DNA from: Dissulfurispira thermophila
GTDB taxonomy: Bacteria > Nitrospirota > Thermodesulfovibrionia > Thermodesulfovibrionales > Dissulfurispiraceae
Assembly: GCF_014701235.1 (NCBI RefSeq)
Contig: NZ_AP022873.1
Coordinates: forward strand, 558,001 to 622,000
DNA length: 64,000 bases
Direction of reading: 5' to 3'
The position numbers were made by a program, and so were the translations under genes. This document shows positions 8,722 to 14,009 of the stretch, piece by piece (position 1 is the stretch's first letter; the number at the start of each line of letters is the position of its first letter). The notes beneath the pieces are model-generated. The model was given only the letters and a program-made list of their open reading frames with translations, ran no database searches and was not told the origin of the DNA.

Positions 8722-9939
8722 ATGCCTACGACATTTAAATGGACAGGAAAGACCCTGAGAGGTGAACAAAAGAGCGGGGAGATTACTGCCAACACAAAGG
8801 ACGAGGTTATCTCTGCTTTAAGAATGCAGGGGATATTACCCACAGTTATTACAGAGACAGCACCGTCCAGAAAACTCTTTGGGCAAAAAAAACAGAAGAT
8901 TACTGATAAGGATATTGTTGTCTTTACCCGTCAGTTTGCTACAATGTTCATGGCTGGCATACCTATTGTTCAGGGTCTTGATATAATGTCAAAACAGTCT
9001 GAGAACAAGACGCTCGGTGCAGTTATTGCTCAAATAAAGGCAGATGTCGAGACAGGCACAACCCTTGCTGATGCACTTAAGAAACATCCGAAGATATTTG
9101 ATGACCTATATGTAAACCTCGTTGCTGCTGGTGAGGCAGGGGGCGTGTTAGATGCAGTGCTTATGAGGCTGGCAGGATATATAGAGAAAGCAATGAAGCT
9201 CAAAAAGAAGGTAAAGGGTGCAATGATATATCCTGCCATTGTTATATCTGTGGCTGTGCTTGTTATTGCAATAATCATGATATGGGTTATACCGATATTC
9301 TCTAAGATTTTTACAGAGATGGGGGCAAAGCTCCCTGCGCCGACAAGGAGTGTTATATGGCTGAGCAACTTTCTTGGTGGTGTAGGTGGGCTGGTGATAC
9401 TTATTGGCATTGTGGCAACTATCTTTGGAATAAAGAAATATAGAGGTACTGAGACAGGAAGGAAAAATACAGACAGATTTCTATTGAAGATGCCTGTTGT
9501 CGGAGATCTTCTCAGGAAAGTTGCTGTTGCAAGATTTACAAGGACACTTGGCACACTGATAAGCAGCGGTGTTCCAATACTCGATGGTCTTGATATATGT
9601 GCGAGGTCATCTGGGAATAAGGTTGTAGAGGAAGTGGTCTTTGAGGTCAAAAAGGAGGTTGCATCAGGAAAGACTGTTGCCGAGCCTCTTTCCAAGTCAG
9701 AGGTCTTTCCGCCTATGGTTACGCAGATGATAAATGTGGGTGAATCAACAGGTGCCCTTGACCAGATGCTTATAAAAATAGCAGATTTTTATGATGACGA
9801 GGTTGATAATGCTGTTGCAAACCTCACAACAATGTTAGAGCCCATGCTCATGGTATTTTTAGGAACAACTATCGGCTATATTGTAGTAGCCCTTTACTTG
9901 CCGATATTTAAGATGGGAGAAGTTGTTGGTGGCAAATAA
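8722..9939 (+). CDS. pilC: Type IV pilus inner-membrane platform protein PilC
   Basis: This is a 405-residue GspF/PilC-family protein of the pilus assembly platform, which couples the assembly ATPase to pilin extraction. Two T2SSF repeats are visible: one from about residue 72 (FTRQFATMFMAGIPIVQGL) and one from about 275 (FTRTLGTLISSGVPILDGL). They are separated by membrane segments near 170-190 and 215-235, with a last one near 375-395. RBS CAGGAGG is well placed. It stands alone, convergent with pilR; pilB and pilT are not in the window. Confidence 0.95.
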   Translation: MPTTFKWTGKTLRGEQKSGEITANTKDEVISALRMQGILPTVITETAPSRKLFGQKKQKITDKDIVVFTRQFATMFMAGIPIVQGLDIMSKQSENKTLGAVIAQIKADVETGTTLADALKKHPKIFDDLYVNLVAAGEAGGVLDAVLMRLAGYIEKAMKLKKKVKGAMIYPAIVISVAVLVIAIIMIWVIPIFSKIFTEMGAKLPAPTRSVIWLSNFLGGVGGLVILIGIVATIFGIKKYRGTETGRKNTDRFLLKMPVVGDLLRKVAVARFTRTLGTLISSGVPILDGLDICARSSGNKVVEEVVFEVKKEVASGKTVAEPLSKSEVFPPMVTQMINVGESTGALDQMLIKIADFYDDEVDNAVANLTTMLEPMLMVFLGTTIGYIVVALYLPIFKMGEVVGGK

Positions 9940-9943
9940 CTTA

Positions 9944-11287
9944 TTAATCTTTGAGTTTATATTTTGAGAGCCTGTATCTGAACTCCCTAAATGTCAAACC
10001 TAAAAGTTCTGCGGCCTTTGTCTTTACACCATTTGCCTTTTGTAGTGCTTTATTCAAGAGATCTTTTTCAATGGATGAGAGGTATTCGTTGAGATTTATA
10101 TTATTTTCTAATGAGGCATTTATTGTATAGCCTTGATTAACTACTACAGGGCATGATGTGCATTTAAGGCAGCCGTCTTCAGAAAGTATTACTTCTTTTT
10201 CGATTATGTTTTTTAATTCCCTTACATTGCCTTTTAGTTCATGCTGCATAATATAATTTACAAATGCAGGCTCGATTTTATGTATATCTTTTTGAAATTT
10301 TTTTGAGAATAGTTTTACAAAGTGATTAATGAGCAAAGGTATATCTTCTTTTCTATCCTTCAGGGATGGCAGACTTATCTCAAAGGTCGAAAGCCTGTAA
10401 TAGAGGTCTTCCCTGAATTCACCTTTTTCGATTGATTCTTTCAGAGACTTGTTTGTAGCAGCAATTATTCTTATATCAATATCTATTTCATTACTACTGC
10501 CTATAGGTCTAATTTTCTTCTCTTCTAAAAATCTTAATAGTTTTGCCTGAATCTGCAGAGGCATTTCCCCTATCTCATCCAAAAATAATGTGCCTCCATT
10601 TGCCTCTTCTATCAGCCCTTGCTTTGATGCATAGGCACCTGTGAATGCGCCTCTTGTATATCCAAATAGTTCACTTTCAAGGAGTTCTTCTGGTAAGGTT
10701 GCGCAGTTAATAGCAATGAACGGCATATCTGCCCTCGTGCTTTTTCTGTGTATAGCCTTTGCAACCAGTTCTTTTCCTGTACCGCTCTGCCCTGTTATGA
10801 TGACATTAGTGTCAAATGGTGCTATTTTTTCTATCATATTGAAGACTCTTTTCATTGCATCTGATTTGCCTATAATATCATGGTATTCATCAGCATATTG
10901 CTGGAGTTCCTTGACTTTTTTCTGGAGGGTTATCTTTTCTTTTATGTTCCTGATGATAACCCTTAATTCATCCAGGTTGAATGGCTTTGTTACATAGTCA
11001 TACGCACCCAACTTCATTGCAGCTATTGCTGTCTCTGTTGATGCAAAAGCAGTGATTATGAGCACAACTGTTTCTAAATTTTGTTTTTTTATTGTCTTTA
11101 GTATGTCTATACCCGAGCCATCTGAGAGACGAAGGTCTATGATTGCGATGTCATAATAATTTTCTTTTATTAAGTCTTCTGCATTAATTATATTTGATGC
11201 CTCATGGACATCGAACCCATCTTCTTTTAATAAGACATTTAATATCTTTCTGATATTTTGTTCATCATCGACAATCAATGCGCGCAT
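9944..11287 (-). CDS. pilR: Sigma-54-dependent response regulator PilR
   Basis: This is a 447-residue NtrC-class activator. The receiver domain has D51, the AAA+ domain begins near 140 with Walker A GQSGTGKE and the sigma-54 loop GAFTGA, and the C-terminal Fis-type HTH includes KTKAAELLGLTFREFRYRL. It is paired with the upstream membrane kinase and sits beside pilC and pilA, so the PilR assignment is strong. An unusual CLKCTSC cluster lies between the AAA+ and HTH domains. RBS GGGAGG is at the start. Its likely target is the pilA promoter, where TGTC-containing boxes and a sigma-54 promoter are seen. Confidence 0.9.
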   Translation of the reverse strand: MRALIVDDEQNIRKILNVLLKEDGFDVHEASNIINAEDLIKENYYDIAIIDLRLSDGSGIDILKTIKKQNLETVVLIITAFASTETAIAAMKLGAYDYVTKPFNLDELRVIIRNIKEKITLQKKVKELQQYADEYHDIIGKSDAMKRVFNMIEKIAPFDTNVIITGQSGTGKELVAKAIHRKSTRADMPFIAINCATLPEELLESELFGYTRGAFTGAYASKQGLIEEANGGTLFLDEIGEMPLQIQAKLLRFLEEKKIRPIGSSNEIDIDIRIIAATNKSLKESIEKGEFREDLYYRLSTFEISLPSLKDRKEDIPLLINHFVKLFSKKFQKDIHKIEPAFVNYIMQHELKGNVRELKNIIEKEVILSEDGCLKCTSCPVVVNQGYTINASLENNINLNEYLSSIEKDLLNKALQKANGVKTKAAELLGLTFREFRYRLSKYKLKD

Positions 11288-11296
11288 AAAACCTCC

Positions 11297-12499
11297 CTAA
11301 AATACAATGGTAAACCTCGCTCCGCCAATTGAAGACCTGTCAACAAAGATATTTCCTCCAAAGCTTGTTATTATCCTATACGCTATTGCCAGCCCCAAAC
11401 CTGTGCCGTTTGCCTTTGTTGTCACAAAAGGCTCAAATATCCTGTCCTTTATATCATCATCTATTCCTCTACCATCGTCTTCTATTTCAATTAAATATTG
11501 ATTAGCATTGTGGTTTTCTCTTGACTCCCAACTCATGATTTTTGAGTCCTGCCCTTTGACTTTTAATGAAATCCTTACCTCTGATTCTGCAGCCTCAATG
11601 GCATTTTTGATGATATTGTTTAGAGCTATTTCCATAAATGTTCTGTTTGCAACGATCTTTGCATTGTCTATCACATTTAATATTATTTTTTTATCACTGT
11701 AGTTGACTCCTGACTCTTGACTCTTAACTCTTGTGACCAGTGATTTTAGGGTTTCTGGTAAATCAACATCTTCCTTTGAGGCATCAGACGGTCTTGAAAA
11801 AAGAAGAAAATCATTAACCAGAGATGTAAGACGCTTTGTTTCTGTATTTAGCATATCAATGAATTCCTTGCTATTTCTTCCTTCATTTAAAAACTGCACT
11901 GCTGCAGAAATTGACGCAAGTGGATTCCTTAGTTCATGTGCTAAATCAGCGCTCACCCTGTAAAGCCTTTCATATCCCTTCATTTTTATTTTTTCTTCTT
12001 CAAGATTTTTTATATGCTGCTCTTGCCTTTGCATTTTTTGTTTTAGATTATCACCTGCGAGTGCTATAAGGGAAAAGGACAGAAAGTGCAGAAAGATATT
12101 AAGGATACTCTCTTTTTCTGCAATAATGCCATTTATATAATACGATGCCCCATAAAGCAATACAGAGGCGATTGGAAAGAGAAATATCTTTTTTGTTTTT
12201 ATTATGACAGATGAAAAAAAGATAGGAAATAGATAGAGAAGTGTCAGATATGAATAAATACTGAAACTAATGTGAACCATTGCTGATATAAATACAATAT
12301 CCAGGAGGAAATCAAAATAATGCATTTTTTTTGTAAAAACAACAAGCCTTAACAATGCTATGAAGCTATAGATAGCCAGTATAAACATTAAACGTGGGAT
12401 TGCATAAGGTAGTCCTACTATCTGAAATGAGATAAGCAATGCAAGTGCAAATATGAAACGACCAATCCTGTAATAGTTAAAAAATGACGACAAATACAT
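11297..12499 (-). CDS. pilS: Membrane sensor kinase PilS
   Basis: The first 155 or so of 400 residues hold about six hydrophobic segments, as in PilS. A short coiled-coil (QKMQRQEQHIKNLEEEK), a HisKA domain with H188 in LAHELRNPLAS and a HATPase_c domain with DDGRGID and GTGLGL follow. It lies 9 bases upstream of pilR on the same strand. Two 7-bp periodic repeats (11701-11735 and 11521-11562) are inserted in frame, near residues 255-266 and 313-326, the second within the ATPase domain. The start has no RBS; a promoter TTGACA-17-TACATT ends 9 bases before it, suggesting a nearly leaderless transcript. Confidence 0.88.
   Translation of the reverse strand: MYLSSFFNYYRIGRFIFALALLISFQIVGLPYAIPRLMFILAIYSFIALLRLVVFTKKMHYFDFLLDIVFISAMVHISFSIYSYLTLLYLFPIFFSSVIIKTKKIFLFPIASVLLYGASYYINGIIAEKESILNIFLHFLSFSLIALAGDNLKQKMQRQEQHIKNLEEEKIKMKGYERLYRVSADLAHELRNPLASISAAVQFLNEGRNSKEFIDMLNTETKRLTSLVNDFLLFSRPSDASKEDVDLPETLKSLVTRVKSQESGVNYSDKKIILNVIDNAKIVANRTFMEIALNNIIKNAIEAAESEVRISLKVKGQDSKIMSWESRENHNANQYLIEIEDDGRGIDDDIKDRIFEPFVTTKANGTGLGLAIAYRIITSFGGNIFVDRSSIGGARFTIVF
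11521..11562. repeat. In-frame heptad array inside pilS (ATPase domain)
   Basis: Six consecutive 7-mers such as TTGACTC, CCAACTC and TTGAGTC follow in exact register. On the coding strand they encode a polar segment (VKGQDSKIMSWES) inserted between two beta strands of the HATPase_c fold. Confidence 0.7.
11701..11735. repeat. In-frame heptad array inside pilS (between HisKA and ATPase)
   Basis: Five 7-mers in register (AGTTGAC, TCCTGAC, TCTTGAC, TCTTAAC and so on) encode the linker RVKSQESGVN. It is the same style of sequence as the array at 11521 and those in tmk and the large activase. Confidence 0.75.
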
Positions 12500-12508
12500 A
12501 TATAAGTT

Positions 12509-12589
12509 AATGTAAGCTAACTGACAAATTTTGTCAATCGGTGTGACAGGGATTGTCAGATGGAAAAGACAGGGCTTAATTGCTATAAT
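12509..12589. promoter_or_regulatory. pilS promoter and paired TGACA-N5-TGTCA boxes
   Basis: Two inverted repeats of the form TGACA-N5-TGTCA lie at 12522-12536 and 12544-12558, centres 22 bp apart (two helical turns). The first overlaps the -35 of a minus-strand promoter for pilS (TTGACA at 12532-12537, 17 bp spacer, TACATT at 12509-12514). On the plus strand TGC-TATAAT (12581-12589) probably serves the Uma2-family gene. The boxes contain TGTC, the core known for PilR binding in Pseudomonas, so autoregulation by PilR is a reasonable inference. Confidence 0.55.
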
Positions 12590-12618
12590 TCAATTAGAAA
12601 TTATGAGGAGGTGTTTTT

Positions 12619-13176
12619 ATGGCTGTGGCAATATTAGAAAAGACTAAAAAGCAATATACCTATGAGGATTATGCAAAGTTGCCAGAGGGTGCGCCTTATC
12701 AATTAATAGGAGGAGAATTAATTATGACACCATCACCTGTGCCTTATCATCAGATAATATCAAGAAATATCGGATTTGAATTATTAAAGTTTAATGAACA
12801 AAAAAAGTCTGGAGAAGTTATTTTTGCACCAATAGATGTCTATTTATCAGAAACAGAGACCTATCAACCTGATATTATTTTTATCTCTAATGAGAGGCTT
12901 AACATCATTGGAGATAAAAAGATAGAGGCTGCGCCCGACCTTGTGATAGAGATACTATCTGAATCAACTGCATATTATGACCTGAAGCATAAAAAACGGA
13001 TTTATGAAAAATCAGGAGTAAAGGAATACTGGATAGTTGACCCTATGGAGAAGGGTATAGAGGTTTACGAGAATATAAACGGAGAGTTTAAAATTTATAG
13101 TCAGGCAATGGAAAAGGGCAGAGTAAATTCAAAACTCCTTGAAGGGTTTGAGGTGAAACTGGAGAAGGTTTTTTAA
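12619..13176 (+). CDS. Uma2 family (DUF820) restriction-endonuclease-fold protein
   Basis: This 185-residue protein has the Uma2/DUF820 architecture: a YEDYAKLPEGAPYQLIGGELIMTPSP-like start, then VYLSETETYQPDIIFIS with the catalytic-type aspartate, APDLVIEILSEST with the E-x-L pair, and KRIYEKSGVKEYWIVDP. These belong to the PD-(D/E)XK superfamily, usually multi-copy and of unclear role. RBS GAGGAGG. It stands between pilS and pilA and may simply be a mobile passenger. Confidence 0.85.
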   Translation: MAVAILEKTKKQYTYEDYAKLPEGAPYQLIGGELIMTPSPVPYHQIISRNIGFELLKFNEQKKSGEVIFAPIDVYLSETETYQPDIIFISNERLNIIGDKKIEAAPDLVIEILSESTAYYDLKHKKRIYEKSGVKEYWIVDPMEKGIEVYENINGEFKIYSQAMEKGRVNSKLLEGFEVKLEKVF

Positions 13177-13204
13177 TCCAAATTGCACAATGGTATCGCA
13201 CAAA

Positions 13205-13315
13205 TGTCACTTTTTTAAGACCCTGAAACAAGTTCAGAGTGACATAAACCGAGGCTTAGGGTGACAAAAGTAAGTGGGCGACAAAAAATTGCTGTTAAGA
13301 CGACAAATTTTGTCA
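13205..13315. promoter_or_regulatory. pilA: Upstream activator array for pilA (TGACA/TGTCA boxes)
   Basis: Boxes occur at 13205-13209 (TGTCA), 13240-13244, 13262-13266 (TGACA), 13279-13283 and 13301-13305 (CGACA), and 13311-13315 (TGTCA). The last two form CGACA-AATTT-TGTCA, sharing 13 bases with the pilS operator. Start-to-start spacings of 22, 17 and 22 put most boxes near the same DNA face. The array lies 70-180 bp upstream of the sigma-54 promoter, the usual distance for an NtrC-class enhancer. Confidence 0.6.
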
Positions 13316-13380
13316 GTATCTTTATAAAAATCAAATCTAAAAAATCCTTAAAAAACAATACAAAAAGATTTATATAAATC

Positions 13381-13397
13381 TTGGCATAAAAAGTGCT
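13381..13397 (+). promoter_or_regulatory. pilA: Sigma-54 promoter of pilA
   Basis: TTGGCAT followed by GTGCT gives the invariant GG (13383-13384), ten bases, then GC (13395-13396). This matches the -24/-12 pattern closely. Transcription would begin near 13407, leaving an untranslated leader of about 150 bases before pilA. Confidence 0.65.
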
Positions 13398-13514: not shown

Positions 13515-13549
13515 TCCGCCATTGGCGGATGAAATCTCCTAATTGGAGG
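13515..13549 (+). promoter_or_regulatory. pilA: pilA leader hairpins, one covering the Shine-Dalgarno
   Basis: TCCGCC (13515-13520) and GGCGGA (13524-13529) form a perfect stem with a three-base loop. Just after it CTCC (13536-13539) can pair with GGAG (13545-13548), which is part of the pilA ribosome binding site GGAGG. Alternative folding could therefore modulate pilin translation. Confidence 0.4.
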
Positions 13550-13556
13550 GTTTAAA

Positions 13557-14009
13557 ATGTTTGAATTAATTCGTAGAATGAAGGAAAGGGATGAAAAGGG
13601 TTTTACACTTGTAGAACTGTTGATTGTCATTGCAATCATCGCAATCTTAGCAGCGATTGCAATACCGCAGTTTGCAAGTTATAGGGCAAGAGGTATTGAA
13701 TCATCTATGGTAGCTGATGCAAGGAATATTGCTACCTCATTGGAAGCAGCATTTGCTGATTGCCAAGCATATCCATCCCTCGCTGCAACTGCTGGTCCGG
13801 CTGCCCCAACACTAACTGCGCCTACTGGCTGCACTGCAACTATGCCAACTGTTAATATTAGCTCTGGCAATACTGTTACAGTTACAGGAGGAACAACTTT
13901 TACAATCACAGTGGATAATGCTAATGCACGTTCAGGTAGAAGTCCGGTAACAATGACAAATGCTGGTGGTGCTACTACATGCACATGGGCTGATGGTTCT
14001 AATTGTTAG
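13557..14009 (+). CDS. pilA: Type IV major pilin PilA
   Basis: A 15-residue positively charged leader ends in G15, followed by the prepilin-peptidase motif FTLVE (F16, E20) and the hydrophobic helix LLIVIAIIAILAAIAIPQF. The whole protein is 150 residues. The globular part is rich in Thr, Gly and Ala, with four cysteines (in DCQAY, TGC, TTCTW and the terminal residue C150) that could form disulphides. A strong sigma-54 promoter and activator array lie upstream and a strong terminator follows, so it is a monocistronic, highly expressed pilin. Confidence 0.95.
   Translation: MFELIRRMKERDEKGFTLVELLIVIAIIAILAAIAIPQFASYRARGIESSMVADARNIATSLEAAFADCQAYPSLAATAGPAAPTLTAPTGCTATMPTVNISSGNTVTVTGGTTFTITVDNANARSGRSPVTMTNAGGATTCTWADGSNC

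Follow-up and report, generated by a model that had tools for sequence, protein, structure and literature searches.

Analysis of a 64,000-nt stretch of the Dissulfurispira thermophila genome, hereafter the window (bases 558001-622000 of a one-contig genome of 2,370,875 bases, labelled G000), points to a switch of type IV pilus control that we consider probable. In this switch a palindromic PilR operator would activate the sigma-54 promoter of the pilin gene pilA and repress pilSR, by means of a pilS -35 element embedded in the operator, with the pilSR mRNA being leaderless. TGACA-N5-TGTCA is the predicted PilR operator of this lineage, and phosphorylated PilR would occupy two such palindromes lying on the same helical face. 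From a position about 60-75 bp upstream, PilR would switch on the sigma-54 promoter of pilA. The palindrome adjacent to pilS would supply the -35 of a sigma-70 promoter (TTGACA-N17-TANNNT), from which pilSR would be read away from pilA, and PilR bound there would block RNA polymerase, so that pilSR is repressed. The pilS transcript would start at, or a few bases from, the start codon. A single operator would thus serve both activation and negative feedback. In the window, a Uma2-family gene would have split the shared region, leaving the pilS-side operator intact and pilA with a separate, weaker enhancer. We infer from the sequence that PilR is probably the binding protein and that its binding probably leads to repression of pilS.

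Genes and Layout of the Locus

The features of the locus are collected in Table 1. PilR has the architecture of an NtrC-type PilR, consisting of a receiver domain, a sigma-54 AAA+ domain with the GAFTGA motif (residue 213) and a Fis-type HTH. The hydropathy scan of PilS gave about six hydrophobic segments and its gene is adjacent to pilR, as in PilSR two-component systems, while the neighboring pilC-like and pilin genes place the pair in a type IV pilus cluster. The mature pilA product contains both E5 and P22, the pilin residues named in the available text of PMC6528607. Additionally, rpoN was found in the genome. Comparison with Geobacter relatives had been proposed in the first-pass annotation, but the nearest named relatives found were Nitrospirae MAGs; the closest named PilR (66% identity) comes from a MAG titled Nitrospirae bacterium. 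Concerning gene order, eight out of nine loci of the named collection with pilC next to the PilR match have pilC, pilS and pilR on one strand and in that order, and for this reason the divergent arrangement of pilSR looks derived in the family of the window. The ninth locus (L031) has the divergent layout as well.

Table 1. Coordinates of the genes and regulatory elements in the window.
Feature	Position	Strand	Remarks
pilC-like gene	8722-9939	+	adjoins pilR
pilR, NtrC-type response regulator	9944-11287	-	Pfam Response_reg, Sigma54_activat, HTH_8
pilS, membrane sensor histidine kinase	11297-12499	-	HisKA, HATPase_c; hydropathy scan
Putative pilS -10, TACATT	12509-12514	-	N17 from -35; nine bases, then ATG at 12499
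Palindrome 1, TGACAAATTTTGTCA	12522-12536		exact TGACA-N5-TGTCA with A/T-only centre; kept at 19/25 loci
Putative pilS -35, TTGACA	12532-12537	-	one base joined to the half of palindrome 1 that faces pilA
Palindrome 2, TGACAGGGATTGTCA	12544-12558		exact TGACA-N5-TGTCA
Uma2-family gene, between pilS operator and pilA	12619-13176	+	PF05685
Apparent dispersed-repeat material with boxes 1-3	13177-13278		partial copies at 200.0, 467.9 and 698.7 kb; not counted as operator
Degenerate first palindrome of putative pilA enhancer, CGACAAAAAATTGCT	13279-13293	+	4 mismatches; same relative place in G007, G008
Second palindrome of putative pilA enhancer, CGACAAATTTTGTCA	13301-13315	+	1 mismatch; gap of 66 bp to the -24 element
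Putative sigma-54 promoter of pilA, TGGCATAAAAAGTGCT	13382-13397	+	GG-N10-GC; similar elements before pilA in relatives
pilA, type IV pilin	13557-14009	+	PF07963 N_methyl

The Palindrome Pair at pilS

The pair of TGACA-N5-TGTCA palindromes at the pilS promoter is present as the first-pass annotation had claimed, with the starts of the two palindromes separated by 22 bp. Searching for pairs (spacing of 20-24, up to 2 mismatches in total) gave this single one in the window and none in each of 200 shuffles, hence the pair is far beyond chance. The annotation had named equal frequency at random intergenic sites as grounds for rejection. Single palindromes, unlike the pair, are only mildly enriched (55 in the window at up to 2 mismatches against a shuffle mean of 36; genome-wide, at up to 1 mismatch, 88 per strand against 54 for the reversed control). 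The genome contains ten distinct exact sites, two at pilS and eight elsewhere, and reading of the ORF N-termini beside these eight revealed no recognizable type IV pilus gene. Two exact palindromes, TGACACGAAGTGTCA and TGACACAAGATGTCA, flank a 562-codon gene (G000:C1 258898 and 260732; L124 2399 and 4233). The 13-base core announced for both sides of the region was also recovered, as the 13-mer GACAAATTTTGTC occurs in the genome exactly twice, once on the pilS side and once on the pilA side (reversed control, one occurrence).

Conservation was studied in a family sample of 31 genomes, which are related and do not represent independent samples. A PilS orthologue (E-value of about 1e-107 or lower) was found in 25 of them and the other six gave generic kinase matches only. 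The pair is located directly upstream of pilS in 19 of the 25 loci with an orthologue, spanning 11 genera, so the boxes are conserved in close relatives, as the first reading required. Palindrome 1 begins 22-27 bases from the pilS start codon in 17 of these 19 loci, and palindrome 2 is conserved with up to 3 mismatches. The spacing between the two is 22-24 bp in 17 loci and 32 and 35 bp in the other two, corresponding to approximately two or three helical turns. When spacing was fixed at 22 bp, the pair was detected in 10/31 family genomes at up to 1 mismatch, with one site per genome, and in 13/31 at up to 3 mismatches, where the reversed control reached 2/31. A pilin lies on the far side of the pair in 18 of the 19 loci (in G013 the contig ends there) and a TGGCAT-N6-TGCT-like promoter is found 61-85 bp beyond palindrome 2 in 14. 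Most relatives have pilSR divergent from pilA with the pair between them; in the window Uma2 intervenes, with separate sites for pilS and for pilA.

The pair is absent at pilS in all six loci where another gene stands beside pilS; since these family members have pilS without boxes, the predicted autorepression would not be universal. Two of these six genomes carry the element at pilA together with a sigma-54 promoter, namely G004, whose pair shows one mismatch at a gap of 74, and G003, with one exact palindrome at a gap of 63. No boxed pilin was detected among the pilins fetched from G001, G002, G005 and G030, some of these assemblies being partial. Counting sites at pilS and at pilA together, 21 of the 25 genomes that have a PilS orthologue carry the element, against 0 of 6 without (Fisher p 0.0003, relatedness ignored). 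G009 has no PilS orthologue; its 3-mismatch pair is not beside a pilin and was counted as absent, and likewise a second such pair in G027.

A Putative pilS Promoter Overlapping the Palindrome

A putative sigma-70 promoter of the regulator operon overlaps the operator. In 16 of the 19 family loci TANNNT stands 17 bp after TTGACA; with each of the remaining spacers between 8 and 23 it occurs in at most 4. The T that precedes TGACA at the -35 flank is present in 17/19, while the three remaining outer flanks of the palindromes have a T in 2, 2 and 3 of 19. Three of the 19 loci deviate: in G025 and G026 the -10 lacks its canonical opening letters, and in G014 the whole -10 is absent. The start codon is located 5-10 nt past the -10 in 17 loci (47 in L006 and 32 in L022), and a pilS transcript almost without a leader is therefore predicted; the PilS N-termini are similar at the start codon used. 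The first-pass annotation had left the choice between repression and autoregulation of pilSR. The overlap of the pair with the putative pilS promoter favors repression over an unspecified autoregulation.

A composite search of 395 genomes of the phylum, combining the pair with the -35 and -10 at up to 3 mismatches, gave matches in 11. Of these, nine belong to this family, a figure that undercounts it because the 22-bp spacing was required, and all nine are at pilS, while the two matches outside the family appear only at the 3-mismatch limit.

Separation of pilS and pilA by Inserted Genes

As had been noted earlier, Uma2 lies between the pilS operator and pilA, and comparison with relatives indicates that it is a lineage-specific insertion. 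Specifically, in G006, of the same genus, pilS, the pair, the sigma-54 promoter and pilA follow each other with nothing between. Uma2 is found in G000, G007 and G008; in G007 and G008 it is accompanied by two nucleotidyltransferase-HEPN-like genes, and G011 has a similar pair alone (names given by reading, without a profile). A role for Uma2 as part of the circuit was rejected in favor of that of a passenger, as it is missing in G006 and, elsewhere, other cassettes accompany it or take its place.

In these four genomes the pilS-side pair has 0 (G000), 0 (G007), 0 (G008) and 1 (G011) mismatches, and at least one further palindrome precedes the pilA promoter in every one of them. This is CGACAAATTTTGTCA in G000 (gap 66; a degenerate partner lies 22 bp upstream), TGACAAAAATTGTTA in G007 (gap 64, partner 20 bp upstream), TGACAATAATTGTCA in G008 (gap 73, partner 21 bp upstream) and TGACAAAAAATGTCA in G011 (gap 138, with an intervening REP-like element). 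Sites thus flank the inserted genes at either end. Read most simply, each promoter requires its sites, which speaks for an action of the pilS-side ones on pilS. Such natural insertions offer a built-in control, in which pilS and pilA have been parted and sites kept by both.

The region between the pilS operator and pilA (12559-13278 in the window) appears as a hot spot of insertion, also in L131, L132, L141 and L140, with genes named by reading, and an IS-like end was observed there in G013. Uma2 seems to have an extended -10-like promoter of its own, identified by eye (TGCTATAAT, 12581-12589, about 22 bp past palindrome 2), and PilR bound at palindrome 2 might touch Uma2 expression. A broader proposal, joining a hard-wired negative feedback of PilSR (the operator being the pilS promoter and the message leaderless) to operator control of the inserted cassettes, is distinctly unlikely. 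If true, toxin- or nuclease-like passengers (Uma2, nucleotidyltransferase-HEPN-like pairs) would come under pilus-sensing control.

The pilA Side

The sigma-54-like motif reported before pilA was confirmed, with like elements in relatives. Six boxes precede it (TGTCA 13205, TGACA 13240, TGACA 13262, CGACA 13279, CGACA 13301 and TGTCA 13311), two of them reading CGACA rather than TGACA. The first-pass annotation had presented them as one array; the letters and the 22/17/22 spacings stand, and the single unit was dropped for boxes 1-3, which appear to be parts of dispersed repeats. Partial copies of this material show 84% identity over 43 bases at 200.0 kb and 80-91% over 23-30 bases at 467.9 kb, the GACA end included, and a related hairpin is present at 698.7 kb. 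Box 3 shares no more than a 9-mer with that hairpin, so its assignment to the repeat is weaker than that of boxes 1-2. The counterpart of the degenerate first palindrome has 2 mismatches in G007 and 1 in G008.

An exact IHF-like site was seen in 2 of 19 spacers of the family and in 4 of 24 from elsewhere (shuffle mean of about 0.2 per set), and the version in the window is degenerate; being confined to a subset of spacers, the site was considered too weak for a general part of the system. Downstream of the promoter, a pilA leader hairpin of the form TCCGCC-NNN-GGCGGA was observed at 13515-13529 of the window and also in L002, L007, L012-L015, L017, L024 and L145. Its arms change in a matched fashion (CTGCC/GGCAG, CCCGC/GCGGG, CCGTC/GACGG), and it is perhaps an mRNA-protecting stem.

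Palindrome and Sigma-54 Promoter Across the Class

The suggested scan for TGACA-N5-TGTCA near sigma-54 promoters was extended to 230 genomes of the class, requiring a palindrome, a gap of 55-85 bp and a strict sigma-54 motif. It detected 81 sites in 66 genomes and none with the reversed pattern. Gaps of 59-65 (15 sites), 68-75 (54) and 80-83 (8) prevail, the values 55 and 57 are represented by one site each and 85 by two, and no site among the 81 has a gap of 66-67 or 76-79. The peaks at 61-62, 71-73 and 81-82 reveal helical phasing throughout the class; taking one gap per genome, R = 0.596 at a period of 10.5, a value matched by none of 20000 uniform draws. As helical phasing is not expected of an accidental motif, the gap distribution indicates that the class element is a genuine enhancer, of which pilins are the main but not the sole target class. 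A pilin follows in 18 of 30 readable class loci and is lacking in 12, L188 and L192 of which stop near the contig end. L173, L190, L193, L196 and L200-L202 combine a phased palindrome and a sigma-54-like promoter with no pilin downstream and can be listed as candidate regulon members. The gap of 66 bp before pilA in the window falls between the class peaks, at a value without class sites; pilA may be less strongly controlled in this strain.

Among 80 named PilR-like loci from other taxa, paired palindromes were present in only two, L036 and L049. In L036, which comes from a Myxococcota MAG, three TGAC-N7-GTCA-like units stand in tandem (11030-11076) some 0.2 kb before a pilin gene, possibly the same type of operator outside the phylum.

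Alternative Explanations

The pair could be an enhancer of pilA only, standing beside pilS through the common intergenic region and leaving pilS unregulated. Such an arrangement would agree with the palindromes that stay with pilA in G003 and G004 and with their absence at pilS in the six relocated loci. We nevertheless regard it as unlikely, given that the pilS pair is near perfect in the four genomes where pilA has been separated and has its own palindrome or palindromes, and that the -35/-10 registration (16/19) is tied to the palindrome. Enhancer action over 0.8-1.6 kb would account for retention of the pair, but not for this registration. The same embedded -35 bears on positive autoregulation, namely that PilR activates pilS from the operator. 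Promoter-near sites can activate, yet here the operator covers the -35 of a sigma-70-like promoter, for which polymerase exclusion is the usual outcome, and we attach hardly any credence to this version.

That the boxes are bound by a different enhancer-binding protein or repressor of similar specificity seems quite improbable. The TGACA/TGTCA halves are simple and the element precedes sigma-54-like motifs in the 12 of 30 class loci lacking a pilin, both of which would suit such a protein; on the other hand, the element tracks the PilS orthologue (21/25 against 0/6) and contains TGTC, a part of the known PilR core. Finally, the spacings of the six boxes before pilA could suggest one extended PilR array, a very improbable arrangement when boxes 1-2, and more weakly box 3, lie in stretches partially copied elsewhere in the genome and pilA of G007 has no comparable array upstream. 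The preferred reading is still that of one PilR operator which would activate pilA and repress pilSR.

Comparison with Known Systems

The system described here resembles PilSR-pilA of Pseudomonas, Geobacter, Myxococcus and Neisseria (Nps/Npa-pilE), as far as the available texts describe them, in having an NtrC-type PilR and a membrane kinase PilS (PMC6058289, PMC2725144, PMC6528607). A sigma-54 promoter of the major pilin with upstream activating sites is also common to those systems, in which PilR-type proteins activate pilA with sigma-54 according to the portions available (PMC6058289, PMC2725144). Unlike in the systems as covered there, pilSR is here divergent from pilA and a half-site of the palindromic pair would serve as the pilS -35. 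Feedback in other bacteria is exerted by the pilin, which is sensed by PilS, and control of pilSR by PilR is not described in the available text of these reports (PMC6058289, PMC6528607). PilR autorepression at pilS, or an operator shared by divergent pilSR and pilA, did not appear in the literature searched, which covered few subscription journals. In the proposed switch, PilR would restrain its own abundance by way of the -35 element. Apart from this, the switch would provide a sequence-level rule of pilus control, directly testable, for a phylum with hardly any genetics, and a candidate definition of the PilR site (palindrome plus phased sigma-54 promoter) that can be used in regulon searches.

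For NtrC (glnA) and NorR (norVW), operators are known that act both as enhancers and, over a sigma-70 promoter, as repressor sites; recognition sequences and targets differ from those presented here. PspF is not known to have a receiver domain or a partner kinase. Unlike with PspF, a whole two-component operon would be repressed in our case, and the -35 would be a half-site of a conserved palindrome. In E. coli, as reported in the accessible part of PMC3709507, PspF acts at shared sites, activating the sigma-54-driven pspA and repressing its own sigma-70 promoter, and the switch that we propose, on sequence grounds only, would similarly combine sigma-54 activation on one side with repression of its own sigma-70 promoter on the other. 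Judging from these comparisons, the parts of the system are ordinary, and their arrangement is new and well conserved.
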